From Inonotus obliquus (lineage: Eukaryota; Basidiomycota; Agaricomycetes; Hymenochaetales; Hymenochaetaceae): a DNA stretch of 64,000 nt. A program made the translations under genes and the position numbers. Position 1 is the first letter of the stretch. Each line of letters begins with the position of its first letter. Under the pieces are notes generated by a model, which did not search any database, was not told the DNA's origin, and was given only the letters and a program-made list of their open reading frames with translations. This document shows positions 30,799-63,035 of this stretch, one piece after another. Location: positions 1,674,001 to 1,738,000 of the forward strand of contig JAJHTX010000005.1 in assembly GCA_032164295.1 (NCBI GenBank). The letters run 5' to 3'.

Positions 30799-32545
30799 TG
30801 AATGTGCGAGAACACGGCCGGTATCAGAAGTACCGGACGAGGGGGGTACAATTTAGATGCATTGGGAGGGCCGGTACGTGGCGGTACTAAGTCGTACAGT
30901 CACAGACAAGTCGTCCAGAGAGAATAGTAGGGCCTAGCTGGATTGATGAGTACAGGAGGCTATAGGTGACCGCTCAAGAGGCGAGGTATCAGAAGACGAT
31001 CGATACCGAGAAGAATCCGTCGATACCGAATTATCTGATGTCCGGTATCACGATAGAGAGAACGAAGCAGTAGAGAAAGCGAGCTGAGGAGGTGTTTCAG
31101 ATGGGACTGGTCGTGAGACGAGAGGCGAGGGCGACGAAGACGATAACGATGACTACCAGTATCGATACCGGCGACTACGAGACGAGACAAACGAACGGGG
31201 ACTTGAACGAGATGAGCAAAACCCGGACCTTCACTCTGGAAGTTCCTCTCAGATTAGCTGGTTTGCTACAGTAGAACATGCAGGCTATAAATACCATAAT
31301 ACCGTAGCCATTCAAGATACCAAATGGGGGGTTTATACAAGTCGAATCGTACCGCAATCCGGTACAAGAAAGGGAACATAAAGTCGAATAGAATGTAAGA
31401 TTACAATCAGGGGAAACATAAGATGATGAATGAATAAGAAGTTTTATCAGGGGGTAGCTAAGAATAGGGTGGGACGAGACAAGAACCCAATGAAAACTCA
31501 CGACGAGTGATACCGAGGTAGGGCGGCGGTACCGACGTCAACCAGCGCTAAAATAAGGACGTGTCTCAAGCTACCGCATGGGCGCTCCTGGTGATGTCCC
31601 TGTTGTAGGAGAAGCACGTCATCCTGATTTACCTTTGTTCCGGTATCATGATCCGTGCGGCGTCAGTCTGGGCGTCTACCGATCGATCGGACGGCGTGCT
31701 CCGATGTTGACGTGTCGGTACAACCCAACCTTGGCAATGGAGTACTCTACCGCTCGGTACCAATCAGTACGCTGGGATCGTCCCTGAGCATCAACGAGAT
31801 TGCTCGAGCCCCTCGATATCGATCGGTACGCGTTGCCTAACTCGACTGGGCATTGCTTGGCTTCCCCTCCGAGTCGGATCGATGGCCTCCTCCGAGATCG
31901 AAGCAGCGTACGGCGGACTTGATTCATTTTCCAACCTTCCTCTCGACGTAGATCTCTGAGGGCGTGGTCTCGACCTAGCACACATTACGAACTCCGGTAC
32001 AGGAGCGGACCATCGGTATCAACACTGGTATCGTCGGTATCGATGCATGGCGGTTCATAAGGGCATACCGTTGGACTTGGAGCTTCGACCATGATCCAAC
32101 TCTTCGCAGCAATGTATGGCAGACCGATCGTAGCTTTGTGAGCCTTTCCCTCTGGTATGGGCTGTCGAGGGTGTAGTACCGACTAGACGTGGACTATTAA
32201 GCGTCGGTATCAGGATTGGTGGACGGTACGGTATCGGTATCATCGGTATCGAAGTCTGGTGGTTCGGTACCGTGATGGAAGACGGGCGTAGGGATTGGTG
32301 ATTCGGTATTGGTGCAGAAGTCTGGCTAAACGTATGCAGGACCAGTTCTCAATCGTTCTTAGCCTTGTCAAATCGCAGAAGCCTCGTATTTTGTTGGAAC
32401 CGCAGGCGTAGATAGGACGGCAGAAGTACCGTGGTCCGAAGAGAAGTAAGAAGTGGTAGAATCACAGAAGTATTGTTAATTGGAAGAAGCGGTAGAATCG
32501 CAGAATTAAGCCCATATCGATCGTAGCCTCCGGTATTACTCTTTA
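30799..32545 (+). mobile_element. Type 1 solo-LTR-like element, copy 1 (1747 bp)
   Basis: Starts TGAATGTGCGAG and ends GGTATTACTCTTTA. The flanks GCAA (30795-30798) and GCGA (32546-32549) form a 4-bp target duplication differing by one G-to-A change. The interior is non-coding and packed with CGGTAYCG-like motifs such as ccgataccg, ccggtatc and tcgataccgg. A TATA-like gctataaatacc lies at 31284-31295. No reverse transcriptase or transposase frame occurs. I define type 1 from six copies in this window. Confidence 0.85.
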
Positions 32546-32984
32546 GCGACATGGTGGCAAGAAGTTAAGAGAGAGTACGTATGGTGGCACACATGTGCAA
32601 TGCATTGAAGTCAAATCTGACCTCGACGCGTCCATACTAGATCGACACAGGGAACATATGATTATTTGACACAAGCTGCACCAGATAATGTAGTGTTATC
32701 TAACAACTGACTGCAATAGACTTTCTCTGGGTAAACAGCTATACGTAAACACAGACCATTTGATTCTATCTTGTCCACACTTTGTCTAGATGATCTGTGA
32801 GTGGTACTTTGATAGATAAACAAAGTAGGTATCTTTTCGTCTAAACTGAAAATGAGACAGACAATCTATTTCTAATTTTGATGATACTTCTCCATGTGTC
32901 CTTCGTTTATCTGGACAGCCTCTACCAGATGGATCCGACATGCAGTGATGGGGTTGAAATGGTGTGGTGTCCCTGCTGCAGCCA

Positions 32985-33110
32985 TCACTCGTTCATCTGC
33001 TGCCATTCCCCTAGAAAGTACTCCTTAAGGTAGGCCACACTTCCCGGTACCGTCGCAAGTGGGATGTCCAAGAAATGTTCCGGCTCCTCCCTAGGTGATT
33101 TGAATAAATG
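32985..33110 (-). pseudogene. Probable C-terminal fragment of the LINE reverse transcriptase ORF
   Basis: A coding-like stretch PREEPEHFLDIPLATVPG, then SVAYLKEYFLGEWQQMNE and a stop. It lies in the same orientation and downstream of the RT pieces after removing the two MITEs, so I assign it to the LINE by position. It has no recognisable motif, and the link is inference. Confidence 0.4.
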
Positions 33111-33715: not shown

Positions 33716-33756
33716 TATATACCGAATAAAGATAATGTACTGGAATAGTTTCCTTA

Positions 33757-34826
33757 CAGGGAAATTCATAAAAATCTGGACATGTGCCAAATTGCCAATT
33801 TTGGCCCCTTCAGTATCTCAGAACACAAAATAAATCATATCTCACTCAATTCTTGACCATTTCGTATTATCTAAGTTGCTAAATTCATGCCCCGATCGTG
33901 CCGTCCGAGCTGTAACAAACCTGAGCAAATCCGGGCAAGAATTGACCCCGAGACGGCGCAAAATGTCGTTTTTTCATGTATTCCTCATGTCCATTTTTTC
34001 CTGCACTCAATTCTGGGTCTGCAGCACCCACAAGTGTCTCAGAATGCTCAGATGGAATAACTGTGAATTTAGGGCCTGCATTTGAGATGAATTTTGAAGG
34101 TGTATGTGCCAGTCTGGGGGCATGCCTGGAAGGCAGAACTGCCCCCTCATCCCTCAAGCTCCCCATGCTCTAGAAAAAATATTTGAAGCCAAATTCATGC
34201 ATAGAAACTCATTTAGAGTGTATTTAAATGTATCTGAGCCTTTCCCAGATCAAATGGATATGTTGGGAAGCTGGGGAAAGGCAGGGAAGCATGGTGCATA
34301 TGCCCTGTCTCCCCCACCTCAAACAATGCACCAATCCTCATAGCAGACATGAGAAGTACTCAGATCACTTTCAATAGGCCTGGAATGAATTTGGCTTCAG
34401 ATATTTTTTCTAGGGCATGGGGAGCTTGAGGGATGAGGGGGCAGTTCTGCCTTCCAGGCATGCCCCCAGACTGGCACATACACCTTCAAAATTCATCTCA
34501 AATGCAGGCCCTAAATTCACAGTTATTCCATCTGAGCATTCTGAGACACTTGTGGGTGCTGCAGACCCAGAATTGAGTGCAGGAAAAAATGGACATGAGG
34601 AATACATGAAAAAACGACATTTTGCACCATCTCGGGGTCAATTCTTGCCCGGATTTGCTCGGGTTTGTTACAGCTCGGACGGCACGATCGGGGCATGAAT
34701 TTAGCAACTTAGATGATATGAAATGGTCAAGAATTGAGTGAGATATGATTTATTTTGTGTTCTAAGGTACTGAAGGGGCCAAAATTGGCAATTTGGCACA
34801 TGTCCAGATTTTTATGAATTTCCCTG
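33757..34826. mobile_element. Foldback MITE with 440-bp inverted arms
   Basis: Two arms of about 443 bp, 33757-34199 and 34385-34826, are near-perfect inverted copies separated by about 185 bp. Ends read CAGGGAAATTCATAAAAATC, flanked by TA on both sides (33755-33756 and 34827-34828). The same short frames appear in both arms on opposite strands, so they are repeat shadows rather than genes. A transcript would fold into a long hairpin. It is inserted in the 3' part of the LINE. Confidence 0.85.
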
Positions 34827-35584
34827 TAACATGACAAAGTACATGTAAGAAAGTGATGAGGTATTTAGAAAGTGTTTCTGTGTAAACAGTGAAACAAAGT
34901 GTAAAGAGAATGGTTGGTGGGTAGGGGTTTTCAATCCAGTATACCATTATCCAATTTTCTGCCTCGTTGTACCATAGTTCATACCATATTTCTCGGCATG
35001 AGAGGGTCTGCCTGTATCCTTGAATGATGACACTAGCCTTTCCCTTCAGTTCCGGGTGCATTATACAAACAGCTAGGCTTACTGGGTCATTTGGCCACAT
35101 CCCTCTGTAGTATTCAGCATGTAGGTTTGGGTTTGTCCTGGTGTGCACCACTATCCCCACATTCCTACTCATTGCTTCTACTGCCACATACTGCACAATT
35201 GGGGGAATAGAGAGCAGGGTCTCCATTGTAATTGTTGGCATGAAGTTTAGGAAGCCACCGCATCTCATCAATGTGTGTCGATGGATGGGTTGCATCCATA
35301 CCGGAGCTCCCCAGTACAGTACCAGCCTTAGGATTTGCAAGTAGTACATCCTCATGTAATGGGCTTTCAGTCCTCTGAACTGTGTGGTTAGCTACTCTAA
35401 TGCAGACCATGTAAAATGGCCTGCTATTACTCGTGACTTGATGAATGGTGTGAAGGACAAGTTCTTGTCAATGTGGATTCCCAACTACGTAACCAATGGC
35501 GAGGAGTAGATTTGTCGGTTCTGGTATGTTAGTGGTTGGTTGATAAGTGGCGTGTACCTTCCTTGTGTACTCCAGACATGTCGG
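34827..35584 (-). pseudogene. LINE reverse transcriptase, thumb and downstream part
   Basis: Reads from 35584 down: LGIHIDKNLSFTPFIKSRV, the family thumb-region pattern, then YLQILRLVLYWGAPVWM and on to PPTILFTLCF. At least two in-frame stops occur. The piece is cut from the RT core by the insertion at 35585-38616. Confidence 0.7.
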
Positions 35585-38500
35585 TAAAGGGTAATACCGG
35601 AGGCTACGATCGATATAGGCTTAATTCTGCATTTCTACTGCTTCTTCCAATTAACAATACTTCTGCAAGTCTACCACTTCTTACTTCTCTTTGGACCACG
35701 GTACTTCTGCCGTCCTATCTACACCTGCAGTTCAGACGAAGTACAAGGCTTCTGCGATTCGACAAGGCTAAGATCGATTGAGAACTGGTCCTGCATACTT
35801 TTAGCCAGACTTCTGCACCAATACCGAATCACAAATTCTTATGCCCATCTTCCATCACAGTACTGAACCACCAGACTTTGATACCGATAATACCGATACT
35901 GTACCGTCCACCCATCCTGATACCAACGTTTAATAGTCCACGTTTAGTCAATACTATGCTCTCAATGGCCCATACCGAGAGAAAGGTCACAAGCTACAAT
36001 CGGTCTGCCATACGTTGCTGCGAAGAGTTGGATCATCAAGAGTGTCAAAGCTCCCAGTCTGATGGTCTGCCCTTCCGAACCGCCATGCATTGATACCAAC
36101 GATACCGGTGTTGATACCGATGGCCCACTCCGGTACCGAAGTTCGTGACGTGTGCTAGGTCGAGACCACGCCCTCGAAGATCTACATTGAGAGGAAGGTT
36201 GGGAAGTGAATTAGGTCTGCTATATGCTGCATCGATCTTGGAGGAGACCATCGATCCAACTTGGAAGCCAAGCCAAGCAATGCCCAGTCAAGTCAGGCAA
36301 CACATACCGATCAATATTGACGAGCACGAGCGATCTCGTCAATGCCCAGAGATGATCCCAGCATACTGATTGGCACCGAGCGATAGAGTACTCCAATGCC
36401 AAGGTTAGGTTGTACCAACATGTCAACATTGGAGCACACCATCCGATCACTCGGTAGATGCCCAGACTGACGCCGCACAGATCATGGTACCAAAACAAAG
36501 GTAAATCTGGATGACACGCTTCTCTGGAGAAGAAGATGACAGGGCTATCGTTAGGAGCACCCATGTGGTAGGTTGAAACATGTCCTTACTTTAGCGCTAA
36601 ATGTGCGAGATCGCATCCAGTACTGGAGGTACCGAGATGAGAGGTGTATGGTTTTAAGTGGGGGAGGGCTAATACGTGCTGGTACTTAACCAGTACGCTC
36701 ACGGTACTTGTTGTCTATGAAAAGGGGTAGTGAATGGATGGGCTGGAAGTGAAGAGTATGAGATTCTGGTACGAAAAGGACAGGTTAGAACGTGGGAAAA
36801 ACTTCGGTATAGGTCGGTACAAGGGAGAATGTAGCAAAACACAAGTCTAATACCGTGGGAAAAACCTCGGTACAGGTCGGTACAGAAACAAAGGGGTCGG
36901 TACGTGGAGGTATGTTGTCAAACAAAAAGGTCAGTACAAAAACAAAAGGGTGACGTGCAGAATACGAAGGATAACAAAACGTCGGTACCGTGGGAAAAAC
37001 GTCGGTACAGGTCGGTACTGCAAGGAAACAGCTAGCACGGGGTGGTATAGCAAAAAACAGACTGGGGGAGGCTGGTGGCTGAGAGTGTTGACTGGACCAG
37101 GAAGGAAACCTGAGCCCTCACACGGGAGGCTAACTCCAAAGTTTCACTTGAGACAGAACTGGGATGGGACTGGGACAGAAATCGAGACGAGACTGAGACA
37201 GAACTGAGAAGGGGGTGAGGAAACCCAAGCCCTCATGCTAGAGGCTAGCTCCTGAGATTACCTGGAGAGCTACTACGTACAGGAGGAGATATTTATACTA
37301 CTGTACCGTAGTTAGCTCATAAATCCAAAAGGAGAAAGTAAAAAGGAAGATCAAAACAAAGAAAAATGTCATAAGAAGAATGAATACAGTAGAGCCATCA
37401 GGGGGACAACAAGAAAGGGTTAGGTAGAACAAGATACCAATGACAACGCAGCATATAGTACCCCTGGATGAAAAGTCCTCAGAACAAGAGATCTGCACCC
37501 CTGCTGATTGATACCGACACGTTCCTGGTGGTACCGGACCTGAAAACCTTAACGGATACTGACCCTGAGCTTCCCCAAAGAACCAGCATGCATACTCCAG
37601 CCATCAGGAATGAATACCAGAGAGGGAGACGTCCGATCCATGTCATGAGAGCACGTCGAATTGTCAAATTGTCTCGGTACCGGGTTTCTCGGCACTCGGT
37701 ACCGGTACTCTTGGCGTTCGGTATCTTGAGAAATGGGACCGACGGTTTCTCTAGGTGTGCTGGTGGATACTAGAAGGTGTAGATGGGACCGTACCGTAGC
37801 ATGGGGTAAGTGTAGAATGGGATACCGGGCTCAATACCGGGCTCAGCCGCATGTAGTTCTCTTCAGCACTGGTCGATGTCAGTACCACCACCCTATCTCG
37901 GTATCGCTTGTCGTAAGTTTTCATTGGATTCTTGTCTTGACCCACCCTATTCTTAGCTACCCCCTGTTAAAACTTCTTATTCATTCGTCATCTTATGTTT
38001 CCCCTGATTATATTTTTACATTCATTTCGACCTTATGTTCCCCTTCTTGTACCGGATTGTGGTACGATTCAACTTGTAAAAAGTCCTCATTTGGTATCTT
38101 GAATGGCTATGGTATTATGGTAATTATAGCCTGCATATTCTACCGTAGCAAACCAGCTAATCTGAGAGGAGCTTCCAGAGGGAAGATCTGGGTTTTGCTC
38201 ATCTCGTTCAAGTCCCTGTTCGTTTGTCTCGTCTCGTAGTTGCTGGCATCGATACCGGTAGTCGTCAATATTGTCTCTGTTGTACTCGCCCCTTGTCTCA
38301 CAACTTGTCCCATCAAGAACTCTTTCTCTACTCGTCTTCTCCCCTGCTTCGTTCTCACTACTGCAATACCGAACTACGAACTACTTGGTATCAATGAGTT
38401 CATCTTGGTATCGATCATCTCCTGATACTTCGTTTCTTGAGTGGTCACCTAGAGCCCCCCTGTACTCATCAATCCAGCCAGGCCCTATCTATCTCTCTCG

Positions 38501-38616
38501 ACGGCCTGTCTGTGACAGTACGACTTAGTACCGCCACATACCGGCCCTCTCAACGCACCTAAATCGTACCCCCCTCGTCCAGTACTTCTAATACCAGCTG
38601 CGTTCTCGCACATTCA
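35585..38616 (-). mobile_element. Type 1 element, copy 2 (interrupted by a type 2 element)
   Basis: Reverse orientation: starts TAAAGGGTAATACCGG at 35585 and ends CTCGCACATTCA at 38616. Flanks TCGG (35581-35584) and TCAG (38617-38620) are a 4-bp duplication with one G-to-A change. The type 2 element at 36598-37865 splits it; without that insert it is about 1.76 kb, as in other copies. It is itself inserted in the LINE reverse transcriptase. Confidence 0.85.
36598..37865 (+). mobile_element. Type 2 solo-LTR-like element, copy 1 (1268 bp)
   Basis: Starts TAAATGTGCGAGATCGC and ends GTAGTTCTCTTCA. Flanks GCGC (36594-36597) and GCAC (37866-37869) form the 4-bp duplication; uninterrupted type 1 copies (for example near 57820) have a single AGCGCTGGTCGATG there, which proves the insertion point. 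It contains three copies of a subrepeat of about 30 bp, CGTGGGAAAAACGTCGGTAC plus CAGGTCGGTAC-like sequence. Confidence 0.9.
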
Positions 38617-39368
38617 TCAGAACATGATAAACTGTACTGAGTCTGAGTCTATTGTTAGGGATGCATTTGCAAACTCCTCCCCAATCTTGCGTAGCCCTTC
38701 ACCAATTCGATTCAGAAGTCATCCAGGCGTGCTTGCAGTTGCAATGAAACCTCCATTGTCCATGTAGAATTGCAGCCATGGCAGGTCCCTCAACCAGTGT
38801 AACACTGACATGGCTGCCATGTTCGCAAGGATTGGTGACACTGAGGATCTCTGGGGTACCTCTCTGTTCAGCTTGATGAACCACTGTGAGCGATCCTCAT
38901 TGAATGCAAAACAAATTGGGTGATCGCATGCGAACACCTCTATTAGCTGGATCAGGTAAAGAGGTACCTCATGTAGCCTCATGGTGTGCTATAGCTGTCT
39001 GAGGTCTACATTGTCGAAATACCCTTTAACGTCGAATGTAACGAAGCCTATGCATGAGTCCTCCGCTGTGAGGAGGCAATTGTATAGGCCATGCCATGCT
39101 CTGTATACCGATGCCCCTGGCCTTCTGCCATGCTGTATTGGTAGGAAATACGTGTCTGGCATTATGTAGGTTTGTAGCTGCAGTATAATAGCTCACTCAA
39201 GTAGTTTCGCTAGCGACTCTTCCACACAAATAGGCCTGTATGTCCGCAGTGTTGTTGGATCATAGGGCTTCAGCTTCTTTACCATTACTACAGCTGTGCA
39301 TTTCAGCATCAGCGGGTAGTGTCCTAGCTCAATACACCTGTTTAGGAACCTTGCAAACATGCAGGCGT
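38617..39368 (-). pseudogene. LINE reverse transcriptase core, catalytically dead
   Basis: From 39368 down: LKPYDPTTLRTYRPICVEES, motif A GFVTFDVKGYFDNVD, motif B VPQRSSVSPILAN, and motif C as FYMDNGGF near 38770-38750. The family motif is [FY]xDD; the second Asp is Asn here (AAT at 38755-38757), so polymerase activity would be lost. Stops occur after SLAKLLE and DLRQL. It is bounded by the two type 1 insertions. Confidence 0.8.
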
Positions 39369-42300
39369 TGAATGTGCAAGAACATGGCCAGTATCAGAAG
39401 TACTGGACAAGGGGGGTACAATTTAGATGTATTGGGAGGGCCAATATGTGGCGGTACTAAGTCGTACTGTCACAGACAAGTCGTCGAGAGAGATAATAAG
39501 GCTTGGCAATATAGTGGAGTACAGGAAGGCTCTAGGTGACCGCTCGAGAGGGAAAGTAGCAGGCGACGGTCAATACCAAAACGAATCCATTGATACCAAG
39601 TCACTTGTAGTCGGTACCAAGGCAGTAAGAGTGAAGCAGAGGAGGAGACGAGCAGATGAGGAGTTCTTGATGAGACGAGTCGCGATAAATGTGCGAGATC
39701 ACAGCCGGTACCGAAGGTACCGGTCGAGGGGTGTATGGTATAAGAGTACGGGGAGGGCCAAATGAGGCAGTACTTATCCAGTACGCTCACGGTTCTTATT
39801 GTCTGTAGTAGAGGGATGTAAGGGGAGTCAAGGGAATAATAGAATGGGGTGCTGGATCAGCTAGACGTCGGGGGGAATGTGTTCTTGTCTGGAATCGAGA
39901 GGGTCGGTACCGTGGGAAAAATGTCGGTACAGGTCGGTACTTGAACGAATGGGTTCGGTATGTGCAGAAACGTTGTAAAACAAAAGCTCAGTACAGAAAC
40001 GAAAGGTGGATGTGCAGAATACGAAGGATAACAAAATGTCGGTACTGTGGGAAAAACGTCGGTACAGGTCGGTACTGCAAGAAAACAACTAGCACGGGGT
40101 GGTATAGCAAGGGACTGAATGGGGGAGACTGGTAGATGAAGGTGTCGACTGGACTGGGAAGCAAACCTGAGCTCTCGCACGGGAGGCTAACTCCTGAGGT
40201 TCACTTGAGACGGAACTGGGACGGAACTTGAGACGAAGCTGAGATGAGACTGAGAAGGGGGGTGAGGAAACCCGAGCCCTCACGCTAGAGGCTAGCTCCT
40301 AAGATTACCTCGAGAGCTACTACGTACAGGAGGAGATATTTATACTACTGTACCGTAGTTAGCTTTTAAATCCAAAAGGAGAAAGTAGAAAGGAAGATCA
40401 AAACAAAGAAAAGTCTGAAGAAAAATGTAACAAGGAAAGTGAACATTGCAGCGCCATCAGGGGGACAACAAGAAAGGGTTAGGGAGGACAAGATACCAAT
40501 GAAAACGTAGCATATAGCACCCCTGGATGAAAAGTCCTCAGGACAAGAGATCTGCACCCCTGCTGATTGATACCGACACGTTCCTGGTGGTACCGGACCT
40601 GAAAACCTTAACAGATACTGACCCTGAGCTTTCCCAAAGAACCGGCATGCATAGTCCAACCATCAGGAATGAATACCAGAGAGGGAGATGTCCGATCCAT
40701 GTTATGAGAGCATGTTGAATTGTCAAATTGTCTCGGTACCGGGTTTCTCGGCACTCGGTACTCTCGGTATTCTCGGTACTGGGTTTCTTGGCGCTCGGTA
40801 CCGGTACTCTTGGCATTTGGTATCTTGAGAAATAGGACTGACGGTTTCTCTAGGTGTGCTGGTGGATACTGGAAGGTGTAGATGGGACCATACCGTAGCA
40901 TGGGGTAAGCGTAGAATGGGATACCGGGCTCAATACCGAGCTCAGCCGCACGTAGTTCTCTTCAGCAAGATGAGAGGCATATACTGCAAAAGACAATGTT
41001 GACAACTACCGGTATTGATACCGTCGACTACAAGATGAGACAAATGAACTGGGACTTAAACAAGGTGAGCAAAACCCTGATCTTCACTCTGGAAGCTCCT
41101 CTCAGATTATCTGGTTTGCTATGGTAGAACATGCAGGCTATAAATACCATAATACCATAGCTATTCAAGATACCAAATAAGGAATTTCACAAGTCGAATC
41201 GTACCACAATCCGGTACAAGAAGGAGAACATACATTCGAAATGAATGTAAAAATATAATCAGGGGGAACATAAGATGACAAATGAATGAGAAGATTTATC
41301 AGGGGGATGCTAAGAATAGGGTAGAACAAGACAAGAATCCAATGAAAACTCACGACAAGTGATACCGATGTAGGGTGGCAGTACTGACATCGACCAGTGC
41401 TAAAGTAAGGATGTGTTTCAGGCTATAGCAAGGGCGCTCCTGACTGTGGCCCTGTCGTCTTCTTCTCCGGAGAAGTATGTTATCAAGATTTACCTTTGTT
41501 CTGGTATCCTGATCTGTGTGGCGTCAGTCTGGGTGTCTACTGAGCGTTCGGACAGCATGCGCCGATGTTGACATATCAGTATAACCCAACCTTGGCAGTG
41601 GAGTACTCTATTGTTCGGTACTAATCAGTTCACTGGGATCATCCCTGAGCATTGATAAGATCGCTTGTGTCTCTCAGTATCTATCGGTACATGTAGCCTA
41701 GCTTGACTGAGTTTTGCTTGGCCTTGCTTCTGAGTCAGATCGGTGGTTCCCTCCGATACCGAAGCAGCATATGGTGAATCTGATTCATTTCCCAACCTTC
41801 CTCTTGATATAGATCATTGAGGGTGCAGTATCAACCTAGCACATGTCACAGATGCTGATACTGGGGTGGGTGACCAGTATTAATATTGGTATCGTCAGTA
41901 TCGATACATGGTAGTTCAGTAAGGTAGACCAACGGACTTGGAGCTTTGATACTTTTAATAATCCAACTCCTCGCAGCAACATAGGGCAGACCGATTGCAG
42001 TTCATGACCTTTCTTATGGTATGGACTGTTGAGAGTGTAGTATCAACTGTACGGATCATTGAGGGCATAGTATTGACTAATGGTGGACCCTTAAACATCA
42101 GTATCAGGATGGGTGGACGGTACAGTATCAGTATCATCAGTATCGAAGCTTGGTGGTTCGGTACTGTGATAGAAGACGGGCATAAGAATTGGTGGTTCGG
42201 TACTGGTGCAAAAGTCTAGCTTAAAGCATGCAGGACCAGTTCTCAATTGATCTTAGCCTTGTTCAATTCACAGAAGCCTTGTATTCTGTCTGAACCATAG

Positions 42301-42440
42301 GCATAGATAGGACGGCAGAAGTACCATGGTCCAAAGAGAAGTTAGAAGCGGTAGAATCGCCGAAGTATTGTTGATTGGAAGAAGCGGTAGAATCGTAAAA
42401 TTAAGCCTATATCAATCGTAGCCTCTGGTATTTCCCTTTA
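39369..42440 (+). mobile_element. Type 1 element, copy 3 (interrupted by a type 2 element)
   Basis: Starts TGAATGTGCAAG and ends TTTCCCTTTA. Flanks GCGT (39365-39368) and GTGT (42441-42444) are a 4-bp duplication with one C-to-T change. The two halves (39369-39685 and 40965-42440) flank the type 2 element. It interrupts the LINE between the pre-RT region and the RT core. Confidence 0.85.
39686..40964 (+). mobile_element. Type 2 solo-LTR-like element, copy 2 (1279 bp)
   Basis: Starts TAAATGTGCGAGATC and ends GTAGTTCTCTTCA, flanked by GCGA (39682-39685) and GCAA (40965-40968). The uninterrupted type 1 sequence reads GTCGCGAGAC at the same place. It carries two of the GTGGGAAAAA-YGTCGGTAC subrepeats and the conserved cttggcgctcggtacc block. 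Confidence 0.9.
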
Positions 42441-50534: not shown

Positions 50535-52279
50535 TGAATGTGCAAGATTGCGGCCAGTATCAGAAGGACCGGACGAGGGAGGTACAATTTAGGTGTGTTG
50601 AGAGGGCCGGTATGTAGCAGTATTAAGTCATACTGTCACAGACAGGTAGTCGAGAGAGGTAGTAGGGCCTAGCAAGATAGAGTAATACAGGGAGGCTCTA
50701 GGTGACCGCTCAAGAGGGGAAAATGGCGGGCGGCAGTTGATACCAAGACAAATCTGTCGATACTGAGTCGTTTGTTGTTCGGTATCAAGGTAGTAAGAAC
50801 GAAGCAGAGGAGGAGACAAAGTAGAGAAAGAATTCTTGATGATACTAGTCGCGAGACAAGGGATGAGTACTACAAAGACAATGTCAGCGGCTACCGGTAT
50901 CAATACCGGCAACTATGAGACGAGATGAACGAACGGGGACTTGAACAAGATGAGCAAAACTCGGATCTTCACTCTGGAAGCTCCTCTCAGATTAGCTGGT
51001 TTGCTATGGTAGAACATGCAGGCTATAAATACCATAATACCGTGGCCATTCAAGATACCAAATGAGGACTTTTTACAAGTCGAATCGTACCACAATCCAG
51101 TACAAGAAGGGGAACATAAAGTCAAAATGAATGTAAAAATATAATCAGGGGAAACATAAGATGATGAATGAATAAGAAGTTTTATCAGGGGGTAGCTAAG
51201 AATAGGGTGGGACAAGACAAGAATCCAATGAAAACTCACAACGAGTGATACCGAGGTAGGGTGGTGGTATCGACGTTGACCAGCACTAAAGTAAGGACAT
51301 GTTTCAAGCTACCGCATGGGCGCTCCTGACGATGGCCCTGTTGTCTTCTTCTCCGGAGAAGCACGTCATCCAGATTTACCTTTGTTCTGGTATCATGATC
51401 CGTGCGGCGTCAGTCTGGGCGTCTACCGAGTGATCGGACGGTGTGTGCCGATGTTGACATGTCGGTACAACCTAGACCTTGGCATTGGAGTACTCTATTG
51501 CTTGGTACCAATCAGTATGCTGGGATTGTCCCTGGGCATCGATAAGATCGCTCGTGCCCCTCGATATCTATTGGTACGCATTGCCTGGCTCGACTGGACG
51601 TTGCTTGGCTTCGCTTCCAAGTCAGATTGATGGTCTCCTCTGAGATCGAAGCAGTGTATGGCAGATCTGATTCATTTCCCAACCTTCCTCTCGGCATAGA
51701 TCTTCGAGGGCACAGTATCGACCTAGCACACGTCACAAACTTTGGTACCGGAGTGGGCCACCGGTATCGTTGATATCGATGCATGGTGGTTCAGAAGGGC
51801 AGACCGTTAGACTTGGAGCTTCGACAATGATCCAACTCTTTGCAGCAATGTATGGCAGACCAATTGTAGTTTGTGACCTTTCTCCCGGTATAGGCTGTCG
51901 AGAGTGTAGTATCGACTAAACGTGGACTATTAAACGTCGGTATCAGGATGGGTGGACGGTATGGTATTGGTATCATCGGTATCGAAGCCTGGTGGTTTGG
52001 TATTGGTGATGGAAGATGGGCGTAAGAATTGGTGATTTGGTATTGGCACAGAAGTCTGGCTAAAAGCATGCAGGACCAGTTCTCAATTGATCTTAGCCTT
52101 ATTGAATCACAGAAGCCTCATACTTCGTCCGAACTGCAGACATAGATAGGATGGCAGAAGTACTGTGGTCCGAAGAGAAGTAAGAAGCAGTAGAATCGCA
52201 GAAGTATTGTTAATTGGAAGAAGCGGTAGAATCGCAGAGTTAAGCTCATATCAATCGTAGCCTCCGGTATTACCCTTTA
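50535..52279 (+). mobile_element. Type 1 element, copy 4 (1745 bp)
   Basis: Starts TGAATGTGCAAG and ends GGTATTACCCTTTA; flanks TCGC (50531-50534) and TTGC (52280-52283) differ by one C-to-T change. It is inserted, in opposite orientation, within coding sequence of the JmjC-like relic: the frame RTVRVPVA runs into it from the right and resumes as MIVDPYLSH on the left. Confidence 0.9.
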
Positions 52280-54309
52280 TTGCGACAGGGACACGCACAG
52301 TTCGCAGCCCTGCTCGACTTGCAACACTGCCCATTTGACCCCCCAAATTCTTTTCGTACCCGTCGCCACGTCGATTGAGCCTCGGTGGACCCTCGGGTAT
52401 ACAGACAATCGTCGAGCCTATCAACGGAGTCAAGCAAGTCCCTAGACCAGAAGGACCGTAATGATAATCTATGATTGTCAATGGACCTGCAACATGGACC
52501 CATTTTGTACCGAGGATAGAATGACCGTCATGTGTGTGCCACATACTGGAATCTGCCCTCTCAGAGTACAGCATGCTAGACAAGTCATCCAAATCCCTGG
52601 GAGCACTGAGCAGCATGTATAATTACATTACTGGAAATACTTACTGAACGTTGAGAGAAACGGCACCATTGACTATCGGTATGTATCCACAATACAATGT
52701 GCGATCAGTCATCGTCTCAAGGTCATTTATCACCTCTGTGACAGAGGCCCTCAAATAATGCATCTGTGGATTATTGATATCCACGGCACAATCTTTTTTC
52801 CTCTGAGCGTCAATTGAAGTAATCTATATCAGCTTCTCACCTTTAACAAGACACTTATCGTGCATGTTGATAAGCGAACTCAAGCCGGCTGACTGCCAAT
52901 CTTTAATATGGAGCCTGTCAGAATTCGTAGCTTCATGTCGAACCATGAGGATCGGTTGCTGTGTGGCCTTCTTTCGGCAAACATTATAACCCAGGCTATC
53001 CCAAGTAGGCCCAGCATTGATATATATGAGATCCAATGGGTTTGACTGATTCCCTAGTATCATCTGTGATACCTTTTCTAAAATTCAGCTGCATGAAAGA
53101 GTGACATGTGATAGAATGTGATCTCACACTTGTACCTGCTTCCCATTCTTGTATGCTCTCTACGGTGTTGACAAACACAGACCTCACTACAGTCGAACCT
53201 GTGGATAAGCATAACCTGTGTGTAAGCATAGAAAATTTTGCCCACCGAGTCGGTAGACAGTAAAATCAGGGTCTAATAAGCATAATTCCATATAAGCATA
53301 TAGCATAACGTTTTTGGGGAAGTCCTAATGAAATAATGCTTACCGGGAGGTAATCAGATGATCTTTTGTTGCCTAATTTAGAGAAAGTGTGACTAATTTT
53401 GATCCGGGACAAATTTTTAAAGGCAACTAAGGGTTAAGAAAGCATTTTTTCTTATCCCAATTCGGCATATAGTACTCCAAAAACTGATGTGTGAAAGAAA
53501 ATGTAATTGTAAGTCACATGTCGACAATTTATGTTGCTTAACTTTCCATATTTAGAAAGATTAGGTATTATGTAATGACATTGTCGTGCTGGGATGGTAT
53601 TGGCTGTTGAATAACCAAGTACACTCCCACTGAGTCAACCGGTCTAATTATCTAGGCAGGTAGTCTTCCCAGTTGTTCGTTGAAGCTATAGGCAACTTGT
53701 TGTAGTTGGAGGGTTGAGGGACTCGAGTTCGAGTAGAGATGTAGAGTGAGTGAGAGATGAGTCTTTATCCAATTCTCTTGAAAGCGAGTGATAGGTCACA
53801 GTGGGTGAGGAGCAATTAAATTGTCCACACCGAGGTAGGCAATGACAAACTATGCAAAATAGATGTCAATGTCTAGAGGGACACACACATTCGAAGTCTC
53901 GAGTTATCAGATATTGACTTTGAGAGGGGTTTATCACCAATGTCCAATTGGAACAGAGGCAATTTAATACCTTTGACTAGTACCAAACTAGTCCTTAAGC
54001 AATGCAGTTACCCAGTCTTGAGCTGTGGTCAACTGTATGCGACGAAACCTTGACTTGACTTGACTTGCAAATAGTGTGACAAGGGGTCACAGAATGATGT
54101 GAGCTTGTCTTGTTCTGAGGAGAACTTGTACTGAGTTAGTTCTATGGGGAGTTAATTCTATATTCCTCTGGGGGGCTACATGCTGGTCCTTAAATACTAA
54201 TTCCAAGACCAATTTACATAATCCACAGCATAAGCTAAAAATAGATCTGCATCAACCACATCATCAAAATTTGATGTCTCCTTCCAAAGCTATGCATCAA
54301 ATACTCCAA

Positions 54310-54530
54310 ATCAAGTGATATGTATCAATGCATCAATGAGTTATTTGATGAATGATGCGCATCAATGAATTACTTGATGAATGATGTGCATCAATGCATG
54401 ACTTGATCAATGCTGTGCATCAATGAATTACTTGATAGATGCTGTGCATCAATGAGTTATTTGATGAATGATGCGCATCAATGAGTTACTTGATGAATGA
54501 TGTGCCATCAATGAATCAATTGATGAGTCC
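54310..54530. repeat. Tandem repeat, about 30-bp unit
   Basis: About seven degenerate copies of gatgaatgatgtgcatcaat followed by gaattactt, inside the pogo-type element. Confidence 0.75.
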
Positions 54531-54559
54531 AGAATATGGTTTAAGGTGATGACCTGATC

Positions 54560-54735
54560 GATGATCTAATCGATGACTTGATAAATGACCTAATGGATGA
54601 TATAATCGATGACCTAATGGATGATATAATCGATGACCTAGTGGATGAGATAATCGATGACCTGATGGATGATATAATCGATTACTTGATGGATAATATA
54701 ATCAATGACCTGATGAATGATATAATCAATTACCC
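54560..54735. repeat. Tandem repeat, 24-bp unit
   Basis: Six to seven copies of gatgacctaatggatgatat followed by aatc. As the unit is a multiple of three it creates a meaningless Asp/Ile-rich frame, which I do not call a gene. Confidence 0.8.
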
Positions 54736-55902
54736 AATTTGGGCTTATTTGGTTTTTGGTATCTAGACTGTGGTCTTTGGTTTTTCCAGAGCGATGGATC
54801 GGATGGCTTCTCAGATAAGACCAAATGAATGGTGCAACCGGTGGTTCTTGAACCTTCATTTCTGCTTCTAGAGCGTGACCATATAAAGAATGGTTTGTTT
54901 ATCTATCGCCGCTCGAGTTCCTTTTCTGCAATTCTTTGTTCTAATGCCACCTTCACGACTTCATGCACGACTTCACCATCTGCTCTGCCACGCTTCTGAA
55001 CTTCTCAGGCTGGCTTTTGTGTATCGTCGCGCTTCCTCTAACCCGATTCAGTGAGTTACTTTCTCGACACTTTTGCGATCTTTATGCTTAATAGCACGAA
55101 GAGTATTTGTGGAGACGACTATAATGATCGAGGAGGAGTGGGTCGAGTGGGTACCGGTGCTTGTTACTAGACGAGTTGTGCTCAATGCTTGATAGTAAGC
55201 TTGGCACTTTCCATCGGCTTTCGATTTACTAACTTGTGTGCAGAATTACGAGTTACTGCGACGTCCGATATTTCTTGTTTATCCTTTCTGATGTCCTGCT
55301 ATGTTCTTGCTTCCGATAGTGTAAAGCGTGCCAATATTACGATTGTTTATGTCCAGGCAATATCCTGGCCTGACAACGTGTACTAGCATAACCTGTAGTT
55401 AAGCATAGCCGAACCTGTCCACCGAGGGCTATGCTTATCCACAGGTTCGACTGTATAATTCTGTCATCATCATCGTATTCCAAATAAAATTTGTATAATT
55501 CAGGGCACCATGTCTTGGTACTCGTGATCTGAAAGATGAATTTTTTTATCATTAAAGAACAGTTATACCAATGGCATTGCCTAACTGATGCGATCAGGTC
55601 TGAGATGCAAGGCAACTTCTTGTCTGAATGTTCACCGAAAATGTTTCGTTCGATACGATCATCCGGGGTATTGCTTGTCAGTCTAATTTGTTTTGGTGTC
55701 TAACACTATTCATCATGGACATACAGGAATACAAAAAAAGTGTACTTACTCTCTCACGTGTGATATCATTGTGACACTCGACTATAGCTGATTCTTCCTT
55801 GTCTTGGTCCCTGTTACACATCTCCTCGTGTTCGCCTTCATCATTATACTTATCAACTCTGTAATGAACGCCTGTCTGTTGTATGACTGATTCAGCTTGC
55901 AT

Positions 55903-56539: not shown

Positions 56540-59170
56540 TTGCTTTCCCTCCTATATATTAGATAGACATGTACTATCACCTACGTCACAGACTACGGTC
56601 TCTTGTGATTTAGTGGCAGCTCGCTTTCTTGCCCATCGACGTCTCCGACTGTGCAAAGCGTAACAATCCATCCATGGCCATACTCCTCACAAGCCAAAAA
56701 AGTCTGCTTTCCATGTAGATGCATTCTGTGATATAGCAGCAGCTATCCACTGCCAATGACTGGTGTAAAAGGTTAAAAAAATAGTGAACAAAAACGTTAT
56801 TCAACATGCTAAAGGGTAATACTGGAGGCTATGATCGATATGGGCTTAATTCTGCAATTCTACCGCTTCTTCCAATTAACAATACTTCTGCAATTCTACC
56901 GCTCTTACTTCTCTTCGGACCATGGTACTTCTGCCATCCTATCTACGCCTGCGGTTCAGACGAAGTACGAGGCTTCTGCGATTTAACAAGGCTAAGATCA
57001 ATTGAGAACTGGTCCTGCATGCGTTTAGCCAGACTTCTGCGCCAATACCAAATCACCAATTCTTACGCCCATCTTCTATCACAGTACCGAACCTCCAGGC
57101 TTCGATACCGATGATACCAATACCATACCGTCCACCCATCCTGATACCGATGTTTAATAGTCCACGTTTAGTCGATACTACGCCCTCAACGGCCCATACT
57201 GAGGGAAAGGCTCACAAGCTACGATCGGTCTGTCATACGTTGCTGCAAAGAGTTGGATCATTGTTGAAGCTCCAAGTCCGACAGTCTGCCCTTCCGAACC
57301 GCCATGCATCGATACCAACGATACCGGTGTTGATACCAATGGCCCACTCTGGTACCGAAGTTCATGACGTGTGCTAGGTCGAGACCATACCCTCGGAGAT
57401 CTACATTGAGAGAAAGGTTGGGAAATGAATCAGGTCTGCTGTACGCTGTTTCGATCTCAGAGGAGACCATCAATCCAACTCGGAAACGATGCCAAGCAAT
57501 GCCCAGTCAAGTCGGGCAATGCGTACTGATCGATATCGAGGGGCACGAGCAATCTCATTGATGCCAGGGACGATCCCAGCGTACTGATTGGCACTGAGCG
57601 ATAGAGTACTCCAATGCCAAGGTTAGGTTGTACCAACATGTCAACATCAGAGCACGCCGTCCGAATGCTTGGAAGACACCCAGACTGACGCTGCATGGAT
57701 CATGGTACTGGAACAAAGGTAAATCTGGATGACGCGCTTCTCCGGAGAAGAAGACAACAGGGCCATCGTCAGGAGCACCCATGTGGTAGCTTGAAACACA
57801 TCCTTACTTTAGCGCTGGTCGATGTTGGTACCACCACCCTACCTCGGTATCGATCATCGTGAGTTTTCATTGGATTCTTGTCTTGACCCACCCTATTCTT
57901 AGCTACCCCCTGTTAAAACTTCTTATTCATTCGTCATCTTATGTTTCCCCTGATTATATTTTTACATTCATTTCACTTTATGTTCCCCTTCTTGTACCGG
58001 ATTGCGGTATGATTCGACTTGTAAAAGTCCTCATTTGGTATCTTGAATGGCTACGGTATCATGGTATTTATAGCCTACATGTTCTACCGTAGCAGACCAG
58101 CTAATCTGAGAGGAGCTTCCAGAGTGAAGATCCGGGTTTTGCTCATCTTGTTCAAGTCCCTGTTTGTTCGTCTTGTCTCGTAGTCACCGGCATTGATACT
58201 GGTAGTTGTCAATATCATCTTCGTCGTCCTCGCCCCTCGTCTCACAACTAGTCCCATCAGAAACTCACCCTCTACTCGTCTTCTCTACTGCTTCGTTCTC
58301 ACTATCGCAATACCAAACGACGAACACCTCGGTATCAACAAATTTGTCTCGGTATCAACCGCCTCCTAATATTTTGTCTCTTGAGCGGTCACCTAGAGCC
58401 CCCCAGTACTCATCAATCCAGCCAGGCCCTACTATCTCTCTCGACGACCTGTCTGTGACTGTATGACTTAGTACCGCCACATACTAGCCCTCCCAACGCA
58501 CCTAAACCGTACCCCCCTTGTCCGGTACTTCTGATACTGGCCGCGTTCTCGCACATTCAATGCACTTGGACAATACTTGGCAAAGGAATCCTTTAATCTG
58601 AGTTGTTGAGACTCAAGCGTCGTCCAGCCAGGAGAGAAAAAGGAGTAAAAGTCACCGCAAAATAAATAGACTTGAGCAAATCGTAATCCTTGTAGGTCTT
58701 GATAAGTTCTCTAGTCCTGACATCGTCTGCATCAATAGCATGTCTTTAGATGCATTCCAGTTAGATAGTCATTTAGACAAAGGAACATACACACAATAAG
58801 CGATTAACAACAGAGTCATGAGAAGACAACATCAGCTGTTAAAAAGGGACAATTAATCAATACCGAGTTTGGGTTAATCTGTATGACATACAAGGGAGAG
58901 CGTGATAAAACTGAGGCTGGCCATATAAAAGTTGTACTTGATGATAGAAAGCAAGGCATCCCTTTTCGAGCGAACTGCACATGTTACCAGAGAGATGATC
59001 GGGATGCATTGGGTTGTGTCTTCTGCGGCCTGTGACTGAGTACCAATGAAAAGTTCAGTTTTGATACAGGACACAAAATTGTTCATGACAGATATCCAGT
59101 CCACAGTAGCGAGATTGAGTTCCTTTGTGTGTTTTGGTACCTCAAGACCAGAATGTTAGGAATCTGCTCT
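56540..59170 (-). pseudogene. Unrecognised coding relic split by a type 1 element
   Basis: Minus-strand coding-like pieces flank the element at 56810-58559. Right of it: GLEVPKHTKELNLATVDWIS and CAVRSKRDALLSIIK (about 59140-58940), and HAIDADDVRTRELIKTY through FTPFSPGWTTLESQ (58745-58563). Left of it: ISQNASTWKADFFGL, a TGA, then GVWPWMDCYALHSRRRRWAR (about 56750-56600). The TGA lies where CGA would fit. I know no matching family; frame, composition and splice-like borders suggest a former gene. Confidence 0.45.
56810..58559 (-). mobile_element. Type 1 element, copy 5 (1750 bp)
   Basis: Reverse orientation: TAAAGGGTAATACTGG at 56810 to CTCGCACATTCA at 58559. Flanks ATGC (56806-56809) and ATGC (58560-58563) are an exact 4-bp duplication. 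Uninterrupted, it shows the intact AGCGCTGGTCGATG site used by type 2 in copy 2. Confidence 0.9.
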
Positions 59171-59294: not shown

Positions 59295-61025
59295 TAAAGG
59301 GTAATACCGGAGGCTACGATCGATATGGGCTTAATTCTGCGATTCTACCGCTTCTTCCAATTAACAATACTTCTGCAATTCTACCGCTTCTTACTTCTCT
59401 TCGGACCACGGTACTTCTGCCGTCCTATCTACGCCTACAGTTCCAACAAAGTACGAGGCTTCTGCGATTCGACAAGGCTATGAATGGTCCTGCATACGTT
59501 TAGCCAGACTTCTGCACCAATACCGAATCACCAATCCCTACGCCCGTCTTCCATCACAGTACCGAACCACCAGACTTCGATACCGATGATACCGATACAG
59601 TACCGTCCACCCATCCTGATACCGATGCTTAATAGTCCACGTTACGCCCTTGACGGCCCATACCAGAGGGAAAGGCTCACAAGCTATGATCGGTCTGCCA
59701 TACGTTGCTGTGAAGAGTTGGATCATTGTCGAAGCTCCAAGTCCGACGGTATGCCCTTCTGAACCACCATGCATCAATACCAACGATACCGGTGTTGATA
59801 CCGATGGTCCACTCTGGTACCGAAGTTCGTAACGTGTGCTAGGTCGAGACCACGCCCTCGGAGATCTACGTCGAGAGGAAGGTTGGGAAATGAATCAGGT
59901 CTGCCATACGCTGCTTCGATCTCGGAGGAGACCATCGATCCGACTCAGAGGGGAAGCCAAGCAATGCCCAGTCGAGTCAGGCAACGCGTACCGATCGATA
60001 TCGAGGGGCTCGAGCGATCTCATTGATGCCCAGGGACAATCCCAGCGTACTGATTGGTACCGAGCGATAGAGTACTCCATTGCCAAGGTTAGGTTGTACC
60101 GACATGTCAACATCGGAGCACGCCGTCCGATCGACCGGTAGACACCCAGACTGACGCCGCACAGATCATGATACCGGAACAAAGGTAAATCAGGAGGACG
60201 TGCTTCTCCAGAGAAGGAGACGACAGGGCCATCGCCAGGAGCACCCATGCGGTAGCTTGAGACACGTCCTAATTCTAGCGCTGGTCAACGTCGGTACCGC
60301 CACCCTACCTCGGTATCACTCGTCGTGAGTTTTCATTGGGTTCTTGTTTCGTCCCACCCTATTCTTAGCTACCCCCTGATAAAACTTCTTATTCATTTAT
60401 TGTCTTATGTTTCCCCTGGTTATATTTTTACATTCATTTCGATCTTATGTTCCCCTTCTTGTACCGGATTGCGGTACAATTCGACTTGTAAAACTCCCCA
60501 TTTGGTATCCTGAATGGCTACGGTATTATGGTATTTATAGCCTGCATGTTCTACTATAGCGAACCAGCTAATCTGAGAGGAACTTCCAGAGTGAAGGTCC
60601 GGGTTTTGCTCATCTCGTTCAAGCCCCCGTTCGTTCGTCTCGTCTCGTAGTCACCGGTATCGATACCGGTAGTCGTCTATATCGTCTTCGTCGTCCTCGC
60701 CTCTCGTCTCACAACTAGTCCTATCAGAAACACCCCCTCTGCTAGTCTTCTCCACTGCTTCGTTCTCTCTACCACAATACCGGACGACAAACGACTCGGT
60801 ATCGACAGATTCGACTCAGTATCAATCGTCTCCTGATATCTCTTCTCTCGAGTGGTCACCTAGAGCCCCCAGTACTCATCAATCCAGCCAGGCCCTACTA
60901 TCTCTCTCGACGACCTGTCTGTGACTGTACAACTTAGTACCGCCACGTACCGGCCCTCCCAACGTACCTAAATCGTACCCCCCTCGTCCGGTACTTCTGA
61001 TACCGGCCGCGTTCTCGCACATTCA
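59295..61025 (-). mobile_element. Type 1 element, copy 6 (1731 bp)
   Basis: Reverse orientation: TAAAGGGTAATACCGG at 59295 to CTCGCACATTCA at 61025. Flanks CCGC (59291-59294) and CTGC (61026-61029) differ by one C-to-T change. Internal CGGTAYCG-like motifs are especially well kept. Confidence 0.9.
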
Positions 61026-61740
61026 CTGCCGACTGACACTTGTTGGTCTGTGCACTATCTTTGATGTTGGTCTGTGCACACTTAATGTCGTAGATAGTCC
61101 CACAGTCCAATACAGTATAAAAGGAGTAGGGAGTCCACCTTAGCCACCTCAGCTTTGGTATCTCCTCTACCTCCCGGTGTTAAGTCAAACTTGGTGTGCT
61201 GTCCTTCTAAGGGAGCGAAGCTCACCTCGATGCTGCGCTTTGTAAGCGTAGTAAGCTGGCCGGGAAAGGTTGATTGCCAAGCCTACCCTCCATCGTCGAC
61301 ATGGCTGCAGCTGGCTTGTGATGGTAGACCTCGGAGATACGTGTTCGTCTGGGTATTGCGCCTGGGCATGTGCCTCTGTCTCCAGTCGTCGGTCTTTATG
61401 GTCGGCATGGGTTTGCTGTTGTGGGTTGGCATTCGTGGTCTGTGTCTTCAACGTACTCCTCTAGGATCCGGGTATCTCCCGTGGCCTAGTCCACTCTCGC
61501 GACGTGCTAGAGATGGGTGGCGAGACCCTCGCTCCCCGCTGTCTGTCTCAAAGTCTCTTTTGCGTTATCCTCTGATCGTCTACTAGTCTAGTCTGCTGGC
61601 CTGACGATGTCCCTCCTCCCTGACCTCGTAGGAGAAGTACTCAAGTGTCGACTGTGGGTACAATCCCTTTCACGAGTTGCTTAGGTGTTATAGTGCGCAC
61701 CTCCCCTGTGGAGAGTCCCCGCATGCTGTCTCATCGACGT
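61026..61740. other. Unannotated sequence with a TATA-like box
   Basis: No gene recognised. A cagtataaaaggag box lies at 61113-61126 after a repeated ttggtctgtgcac phrase (61042-61054 and 61066-61078). The sequence is more GC-rich than neighbours and continues after the type 2 insertion at 61741-63035. An open frame of 143 codons at 61155-61586 has no recognisable content. Confidence 0.35.
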
Positions 61741-63035
61741 TAAATGTGCGAGATTGCGTCCGGTACCGAAATACCGAGACGAGGGGTGTATGGTTTTAAG
61801 TGGGGGAGGGCTAATACGTGCCGGTACTTAACCAGTACGGTCACGGTACTTGTTGTCTATGAAAAGGGGGAGTTAATGGATGGGCCCAAAGTGAAGGGTA
61901 TGTGATTCTGGTATGAAAAGGACAGGTTAGAATGTGGGAAAAACTTTGGTACAGGTCGGTATGGGAGAGAACGTAGCAAAACAAGAGTCTAATACCATGG
62001 GAAAAACCTCGGTACAGGTCGGTACAGAAAGAAAGGGGTCGGTACCGTGGGAAAAATGTCGGTACAGGTCGGTACTTGAACGAATGGGTTCGGTATGTGC
62101 AGAAACGTTGTAAAACAAAAGCTCAGTACAGAAACGAAAGGTGGATGTGCAGAATACAAAGGATAACAAAATGTCGGTACCGTGGGAAAAACGTCGGTAC
62201 AGGTCGGTACTGCAAGGAAACAGCTAGCACGGGGTGGTATAGCAAGAAACAGACTGGGGGAGGCTGGTGGCTGAGAGTGTTGACTGGACTGGGAAGGAAA
62301 CCTGAGCCCTCACACAGGAGGCTAACTCTGAAGGTTCACTTGAGATGGAACTGGGATGGGACTGGGACGAAGCTTGAGAGGAGACTGAGATGGAACTGAG
62401 AAGGGGGTGAGGAAACCCGAGCCCTCACACTAGAGGCTAGCTCCTAAGATTACCTGGAGAGCTACTACGTACAGGAGGAGATATTTATACTACTGTACTG
62501 AACATTGCAGCACCATCAGAGGGACAACAAGAAAGGGTTAGGGAGGACAAGATACCAATGAAAACGTAGCATATAGTACCCCTGGATGAAAAGTCCTTAG
62601 GACAAGAGATCTGCGCCCCTGCTGATTGATACCGACACGTTTCTGGTGGTACCGGACCTGAAAACCTTAACAGATACTGACCCTGAGCTTCCCCAAAGAA
62701 CCGGCATGCATAGTCCAACCATCAGGAATGAATACCAGAGAGGAAGACATCTGATCCATGTCATGAGAGCATGTCGAATTGTCAAATTGTCTCAGTACCG
62801 GGTTTCTCGGCACTCGGTACTCTCGGTATTCTCGGTACCGGGTTTCTTGGCGCTCGGTACCGGTACTCTCGGCGTTCGGTATCTTGAGAAATGGGACCGA
62901 CAGTTTCTCTAGGTGTGCTGGTGGATACTGGAAGGTGTAGATGGGACTGTACTGTAGCATGGGGTAAGCATAGAATGGGATACCGGGCTTGATACCGAGC
63001 TTGATACTGAGCTCAGCTGCACGTAGTTCTCTTCA
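61741..63035 (+). mobile_element. Type 2 solo-LTR-like element, copy 3 (1295 bp)
   Basis: Starts TAAATGTGCGAGATTGC and ends GTAGTTCTCTTCA, flanked by an exact ACGT duplication (61737-61740 and 63036-63039). It holds four GTGGGAAAAA-containing subrepeats between 61930 and 62215. It keeps CpG in both duplicates, so it may be a younger insertion. Confidence 0.9.

Follow-up and report, generated by a model that had tools for sequence, protein, structure and literature searches.

CpG-centred target site duplications in a Ty3/Gypsy retrotransposon lineage of Inonotus obliquus

Target site duplications

We analyzed a stretch of 64,000 nucleotides of Inonotus obliquus DNA, hereafter the window (C5:1674001-1738000 of a host assembly of 36.07 Mb in 30 contigs), in which a first-pass annotation had described nine insertions of two element families with a 4-bp NCGN target site duplication (TSD). 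These elements are solo long terminal repeats (LTRs) of Ty3/Gypsy retrotransposons read in antisense, and both types, 1 and 2, belong to a single lineage. Genome-wide, their insertions are centred on CpG with few exceptions. The reading we favor, with a probability of about 0.85, is that the integrase of this lineage itself selects a central CpG and that the mismatches within duplications come from later CpG mutation.

The left (U5-side) end was searched as the 21-base pattern TRAATGTRYRAGWWYRYRGCC, which matched the genome 248 times and a reversed control not at all; copies whose 21-base end is altered beyond the pattern are not in this count. Seven matches are joints to the primer binding site (PBS), 240 have a pyrimidine-purine (YR) step at the TSD centre (positions -3 and -2) and one, in locus L063, has neither. 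Among the 241 chromosomal joints, CG occupies the centre in 202 (84%) and another YR step in 38, the single exception reading TGGT; among the matches listed (the first 100 of the 240 YR joints), all the rows without CG show TG or CA. At the U3-side (right) ends of type 1, NCG was found in 154 of 182 genome-wide and a purine at the second position in none, the remaining 28 being an unsplit mix of decayed sites and internal joints on the side of the polypurine tract (PPT). When unique joints of the fetched loci and the window were counted, the 79 left ones comprised 61 CG, 7 AG (the PBS), 6 CA, 4 TG and 1 GG, and the 53 right ones 42 CG, 3 CA, 3 TG, 3 CT (the PPT), 1 GG and 1 TT. Across the fetched loci, CG takes up about 6% of positions.

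Starts and ends could be joined into 41 pairs, two of which (C2 942519 and C2 1854910) were removed as mispaired. In the 39 that remain the boundaries hold, and at least one copy of the duplication contains CG in 38: the two copies are identical NCGN in 24 insertions, differ once outside the CG in five and keep the CG in one copy only in nine (seven of them from the window), while one pair has no CG. A logo of 40 sites, which still includes C2 1854910 and represents mismatched pairs by their CG copy, reached 2.0 and 1.83 bits at the central dinucleotide, and none of the other 22 positions exceeded 0.2 bit. All four bases are present at both outer positions of the duplication.

Identity of the elements

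A purine at position -3 was found in only eight of the 248 left ends, and seven of these eight are preceded by CCCTCGCGGTGGGCTC[CT]AG[TA]. On the opposite strand, the [C]AG form reads as TGGAGCCCACCGCGAGGG, two bases inside the LTR, which is a PBS complementary to a tRNA 3' end. One genomic tRNA gene with a matching 3' end was located at C1:3067821; ARAGORN called it Arg or Lys and a second ARAGORN run left it unnamed with anticodon ct, whereas from the interrupted anticodon we read it as Lys(CTT) with an intron. The solo copies, which lack long coding frames, had also been considered as non-autonomous DNA transposons. The PBS-like sequence common to seven of the eight joints led to copies with gag and pol, and that idea was dropped.

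Behind the PBS of locus L070, antisense to the orientation first annotated, lie a gag region that includes an aspartyl protease (L070:6457-4484) and a pol frame of 1252 codons (L070:4574-819) with reverse transcriptase (RT), RNase H and an H2C2 integrase. Aspartyl protease, RT and RNase H matched Pfam above the cut-off, with RT and RNase H upstream of the integrase. Among PDB chains searched with phmmer, the integrase was nearest to that of prototype foamy virus (PFV; E 4e-15), and the match to Ty3 was weaker (E 3e-5). No chromodomain or methyl-CpG reader was detected in gag or pol (Pfam, E 0.01; the scan covered gag and pol of this lineage). In the sense direction the other LTR is preceded by a PPT-like tract, which reads ...GGGGAGA for type 1 and ...GGGAGA for type 2, and the sense LTR termini are TA...CA in type 1 and TG...TA in type 2. 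The placement in Ty3/Gypsy is based on this domain order and on these sequence matches. No pol relatives were found among viral contigs; the best 120 of 979 integrase relatives show 50-70% identity, and where a source is named, in a few of them, it is a mushroom.

Three full-length copies of about 13.4 kb were found on C2, C5 and C12, with LTRs about 10 kb apart, the PBS and the PPT-like tract. Their pol frames are free of stops and 100% identical (as rounded by the search), and matched duplications lie outside both LTRs, namely GCGC/GCGC, CCGA/CCGA and TCGC/TCGC, respectively. Other pol copies are more degraded: 98% identity with one TGA on C9, 92% with one TGA on C11, and two pieces of 94% and 93% with three TGA on C13. 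Since the PBS is joined to only seven of the 248 U5-side ends, nearly all copies are not full-length, and the solo LTRs of the window are presumably remnants left after loss of the internal part by recombination between LTRs.

A few loci show other arrangements. A gag-only internal region lies between type-2 LTRs on C13 (L069:73-5783); its frame of 846 codons has no Pfam match, and its DNA is 66% alike to part of the L070 gag. In L077 (C9:1343280-1343480) and L064, a type-1 LTR has PPT-side internal sequence on one side and the PBS on the other, so that two tandem elements seemingly have this LTR in common. In L082 (C12:1878850-1879100) a type-2-like LTR in opposite orientation starts directly past TCGC, the 3' TSD of the full-length C12 copy, as though the same CpG had served a second element.

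Empty sites and nesting

We looked for empty sites by joining the flanks of each insertion with one copy of the duplication and comparing them by BLAST with the fetched sequence, the counterparts being paralogous repeats within this genome. Uninterrupted counterparts were recovered for 19 of the 39 sites, 18 of which had at least one match without a gap over the joint. The centre of the best gapless counterpart was CG in 16, TG in one and CA in one. These counterparts support the 4-bp duplication proposed from the window and indicate that the CG was already in the target before insertion. The gapless share of the matches was partial at several sites: 19 of 78 at C5 1713686, 2 of 94 at C5 572052, 2 of 4 at C3 2717727 and 21 of 29 at C2 943631.

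Thirteen of the 39 sites are within LTRs or internal sequence of the element itself. This sequence makes up an estimated 1-2% of the genome (248 ends of about 1.6 kb), so insertion or retention appears biased to repeats, the sample being non-random. Strong nesting of this kind would be expected if methylated repeats were preferred, but selection against genic insertions would lead to it too.

Sister and control families

A sister Gypsy family, Z, is mostly 50-51% identical over RT and 40-42% over the integrase. Its LTRs, of about 1.77 kb, have the termini TG...CA, and the copy on C11 is flanked by GCGG/GCGG. A right-end pattern with two mismatches allowed gave 64 matches, 53 of them with the exact 16-base end: 36 of these showed NCG, four TG or CA, and 13 the AAAA of the inner joint toward the PBS. 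At the outer exact ends, CG is thus found in 36 of 40 and TG or CA in four, and the 11 altered ends contain eight CG and three TG or CA.

Two putative LTR-like families, recognized from their TGTTAG starts, served as controls. In family X (TGTTAGGACCAGTGC...), which adjoins type 1 and receives type-1 insertions in several loci, CG is present at the equivalent place in only one of 57 exact ends, and in family Y in neither of two; a third Y match, in L070, was dropped as a chance match. Since Z obeys the rule and X does not, the CpG rule is a property of the lineage and not of the genome.

CpG decay

Decay was assessed against a single chosen type-1 copy, L020, whose LTR contains 132 CpG, about 15% of its positions. 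CpG-type transitions represent 36-70% of the type-1 differences from this copy: 89 of 234, 80 of 199 and 45 of 125 in three copies from the window; in six further copies they number 32-42 of 60-78. CpG lost against gained amounted to 71:18, 64:16 and 25:20 in the window copies and was near balance in the six others. The observed to expected ratio of CpG is 1.02 in the gene part of the window but lower, 0.66 and 0.80, in the repeat parts. The first-pass annotation had proposed integration centred on CpG followed by decay of methylated CpG; integration centred on CpG with a 4-bp stagger and the later CpG decay are borne out. The outcomes that this annotation had named as refuting it did not appear: boundaries held in the 39 pairs, CG was present in at least one copy of 38 duplications, and 18 of 19 empty sites agreed with a duplication of 4 bp. 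The substitution pattern fits decay of methylated CpG, but a process resembling repeat-induced point mutation may also have produced it.

Origin of the CpG preference

We infer that site choice is intrinsic to the integrase. An integrase like that of PFV would cut the two strands 4 bp apart and unstack the central YR step, base contacts of the protein would restrict this step in the present lineage to CG almost absolutely, and once the element is inserted, the (probably methylated) CpG would mutate to TG or CA and so yield unlike copies of the duplication. With the same 4-bp stagger as PFV and a YR centre, either CG or what a single change of CG gives, in all but one of 241 joints, such base contacts are the simplest step from what is known.

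Several observations weigh against this reading. The TGGT joint of L063 breaks the rule, and its right end was not found. Two of 50 right ends other than PPT joints (the GG and the TT) are also off the rule, one in a 78-bp type-2 fragment (C2 1852345) and one in a rearranged type-2 copy (C6 2081023). The window insertion at 56810-58559 has ATGC on both sides, which would require either that both copies decayed in the same way or that the element integrated at a TG/CA step. C2 1852422, one of the 19 sites with counterparts, gave no gapless match. The flanks of the gag-only element in L069 are unlike, ACGT and GCGC; both lie within sequence common to type-1 elements, and we attribute the mismatch to recombination between nested copies. 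The integrase core did not match Pfam rve, so that its identity is based on the H2C2 motif and the matches to PFV and Ty3. Finally, the 39 pairs are non-random, since their loci are either the best matches from BLAST or the places that come first on C1 and C2, and the whole evidence base is sequence data from one genome.

The alternative that survives best, though we hold it as unlikely, is that the integrase recognizes specifically methylated CpG and that the element would thereby aim its insertions at DNA already marked as a silenced repeat. The target is indeed the methylatable dinucleotide, nested insertions are common, and CpG-type transitions exceed the CpG share of positions in type 1 (36-70% against about 15%). 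Decay after insertion, however, is uninformative on the state of the site at insertion, and a plain preference for CG accounts for all the data. If the alternative were true, landing in kin would follow from the chemistry of the target and owe nothing to a chromodomain, and the CpG methylome would have a natural reader in this element.

An improbable explanation is that the pre-integration complex is tethered by a host protein that sits at CpG, such as a methyl-CpG or heterochromatin protein, and that the integrase adds little preference of its own. The excess of sites in the element's own sequence (13 of 39) and the CpG methylation of repeats reported for another mushroom (PMC9674265) speak for it. 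Yet tethering predicts a regional bias and not a single-base register, and here CG sits precisely midway in the stagger, in surroundings that carry almost no information. In addition, family X inhabits the same repeats without following the rule, and gag and pol have no recognizable chromodomain or methyl-CpG reader at the Pfam threshold given above.

Mobilization of non-autonomous DNA transposons by a Ginger1-like transposase has very little left in its favor. TSD length and CpG centre are equal in Ginger1 (PMC2836005) and the solo copies lack long coding frames, but long terminal inverted repeats are absent, the outer TSD positions show each of the four bases and, since the same sequences flank the PBS and the PPT in full-length gag-pol elements, this explanation is already contradicted. 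Least credible of all is an artefact that stems from base composition, from the way boundaries were chosen or from selective survival, with CpG-rich repeats as targets or the CG as part of the element: element DNA is fairly CpG-rich, as the L020 LTR illustrates, but this is already contradicted by CG at 84% of joints against about 6% of positions, by CG in 16 of 18 best gapless uninterrupted targets and by its presence in one of 57 ends of family X in the same landscape.

Insertions and other features of the window

All nine flank pairs and boundaries first reported for the window were exact on recheck; seven pairs are mismatched, each by one CpG transition, and CG is retained in at least one copy in eight. 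The type-1 solo LTR at 30799..32545 (minus strand, 1747 bp, flanks GCAA/GCGA) was identified as an LTR from the full-length copies. A second one, at 35585..38616 (plus strand, 3032 bp in total, TCGG/TCAG), is split by a type-2 solo LTR nested at 36598..37865 (minus strand, GCGC/GCAC); when the flanks of the latter were joined, 71 of 71 BLAST matches were gapless at the joint, although they come from overlapping loci and are not 71 independent copies. A similar nested pair is formed by the type-1 solo LTR at 39369..42440 (minus strand, GCGT/GTGT) and the type-2 solo LTR of 1279 bp that splits it at 39686..40964 (minus strand, GCGA/GCAA). This pair lies within and breaks a LINE-like sequence (long interspersed nuclear element; 38640-39365 and 42441-45800), whose endonuclease-RT match at 43046-43576 scores under the curated cut-off.

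Further type-1 solo LTRs are located at 50535..52279 (minus strand, TCGC/TTGC), at 56810..58559 (plus strand, ATGC/ATGC, the only one of the 39 pairs without CG in either copy) and at 59295..61025 (plus strand, CCGC/CTGC), followed by a type-2 solo LTR at 61741..63035 (minus strand, ACGT/ACGT). For each of the last two, a single uninterrupted counterpart, in L054, contains CG. A tenth insertion of the same kind, absent from the nine described before, is a solo LTR of 1794 bp at 53582..55375 (minus strand, ACAT/ACGT) that belongs to Z, the second CpG-targeting Gypsy family. Two minisatellite arrays with units of 29 and 12 bp lie inside it (54329-54751), and the Z copy of L040 shows similar repeats.

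Elsewhere in the window, a ketol-acid reductoisomerase gene (640-1749) has its matches among proteins of basidiomycetes, of which the best with a name is from Schizopora paradoxa (84%); this makes the host a basidiomycete and probably an Agaricomycete. An element at 33754-34829 has inverted arms of 445 bp, 98% complementary and spaced by 186 bp; its ends read TTACAGGG...CCCTGTAA, perhaps with CAGGG as the termini and TA as the duplication around them.

CGGTA motif and antisense frame

The motif CGGTA/TACCG is dense in the elements, with 16-21 occurrences per kb in both LTRs, gag-pol, the gag-only element and an antisense frame, against 1.4 per kb in the window genes, 0-2.0 in families X, Y and Z and the LINE, and 2.7 in one flank of 1.5 kb. 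It is thus more than tenfold enriched across the CpG-targeting element relative to the window genes (type-1 and type-2 LTRs, L070:819-6457, L099:550-3120 and the L069 internal region). Compared with 500 protein-preserving codon shuffles, the motif occurred 31 times in gag against 7.1 (standard deviation 2.1), 64 times in pol against 14.8 (3.3), 50 times in the antisense frame against 10.5 (2.9) and 46 times in the gag-only frame against 15.7 (3.3). Two host genes gave 1 against 1.8 and 0 against 2.6.

The antisense frame (C2:1088949-1091921, corresponding to L099:550-3120 on the plus strand and continuing into L070:3-422) is located between pol and the 3' LTR, antisense to gag-pol. It spans about 990 codons from stop to stop, is rich in glutamine and contains C-x2-C-x6-C-x7-C-x2-C-x7-C, a cysteine spacing that resembles fungal Zn2Cys6 domains. 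Such domains bind CGG triplets. The frame had no Pfam support for Zn2Cys6 at E 1, and no homologue was found. CGGTA or CGGTACCG DNA may be put forward, as a lead, as a candidate ligand of the cysteine-rich stretch. In Arabidopsis VANDAL elements, a dense, mainly non-coding motif is bound by the element's own anti-silencing protein (PMC5735166). By analogy with VANDAL and its VANC protein, CGGTA might be a motif of self-recognition, a possibility that we offer as a lead and not as a result.

Significance and comparison with known systems

A near-absolute rule of two bases, common to two families with 40-42% integrase identity, offers a clean natural system for the choice of the central step by the intasome. 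Retroviral and Drosophila LTR element sites are otherwise weak or extended palindromes, as far as the relevant parts of PMC4422553 and PMC3276498 describe them. Because CpG is the methylated dinucleotide of mushroom repeats, the link between target choice and silencing is directly testable, and so short and strict a rule could tie landing sites to DNA methylation. In practice, NCGN is a TSD signature for annotating such elements.

With LTRs, a PBS, a PPT-like tract, the order protease-RT-RNase H-integrase and a short TSD, the elements resemble Ty3/Gypsy (Metaviridae) retrotransposons; they differ from chromoviruses in that pol has no chromodomain match (Pfam, E 0.01). Ginger1 is a DNA transposon and is not known to carry an RT. 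The likeness to it concerns the 4-bp TSD with a CG centre and the Gypsy-type integrase domain, and its TSDs are CCGG in 75% and CCGT/ACGG in 24% (PMC2836005). It differs in its terminal inverted repeats and restricted outer TSD bases: the latter are nearly free here, the TSD being NCGN and not CCGG or CCGT/ACGG, and in place of inverted repeats of 40-270 bp only an imperfect TRAA was seen by eye at the ends. ZAM of Drosophila is likewise an LTR retroelement, and it integrates with high sequence specificity into a site that contains CpG; its copies lie in CGCGCg, and its integrase binds the site itself (PMC2527525). In contrast to the ZAM copies, any NCGN serves here, with at most 0.2 bit beyond the two central bases. 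In view of Ginger1 and ZAM, the first-pass remark that no transposon or LTR element was known with this target rule is too strong.

Drosophila Gypsy families have mostly 4-bp TSDs, and Drosophila LTR target motifs are palindromes with an AT-rich tendency that reach beyond the TSD, according to the part of PMC3276498 devoted to them; here the motif is the bare CG, with almost nothing outside. The PFV intasome, whose integrase is the best PDB match, has the same 4-bp stagger, and a sharp bend of the target unstacks the central dinucleotide and favors flexible YR steps (PMC4422553). Its consensus is weak and concerns YR in general, whereas we find CG or apparently decayed CG. Cryptococcus TCN3 and Gypsy-1_CrGa are basidiomycete Gypsy elements too, but their TSDs are 5 and 6 bp long and variable in sequence (PMC12810828). 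No LTR retrotransposon with a bare CpG target was found among the matches listed in a search of open-licence literature by title and start of abstract, subscription journals falling mostly outside it. CpG-containing targets have precedent, and among those matches a bare CpG without a wider motif is new for an LTR retrotransposon.

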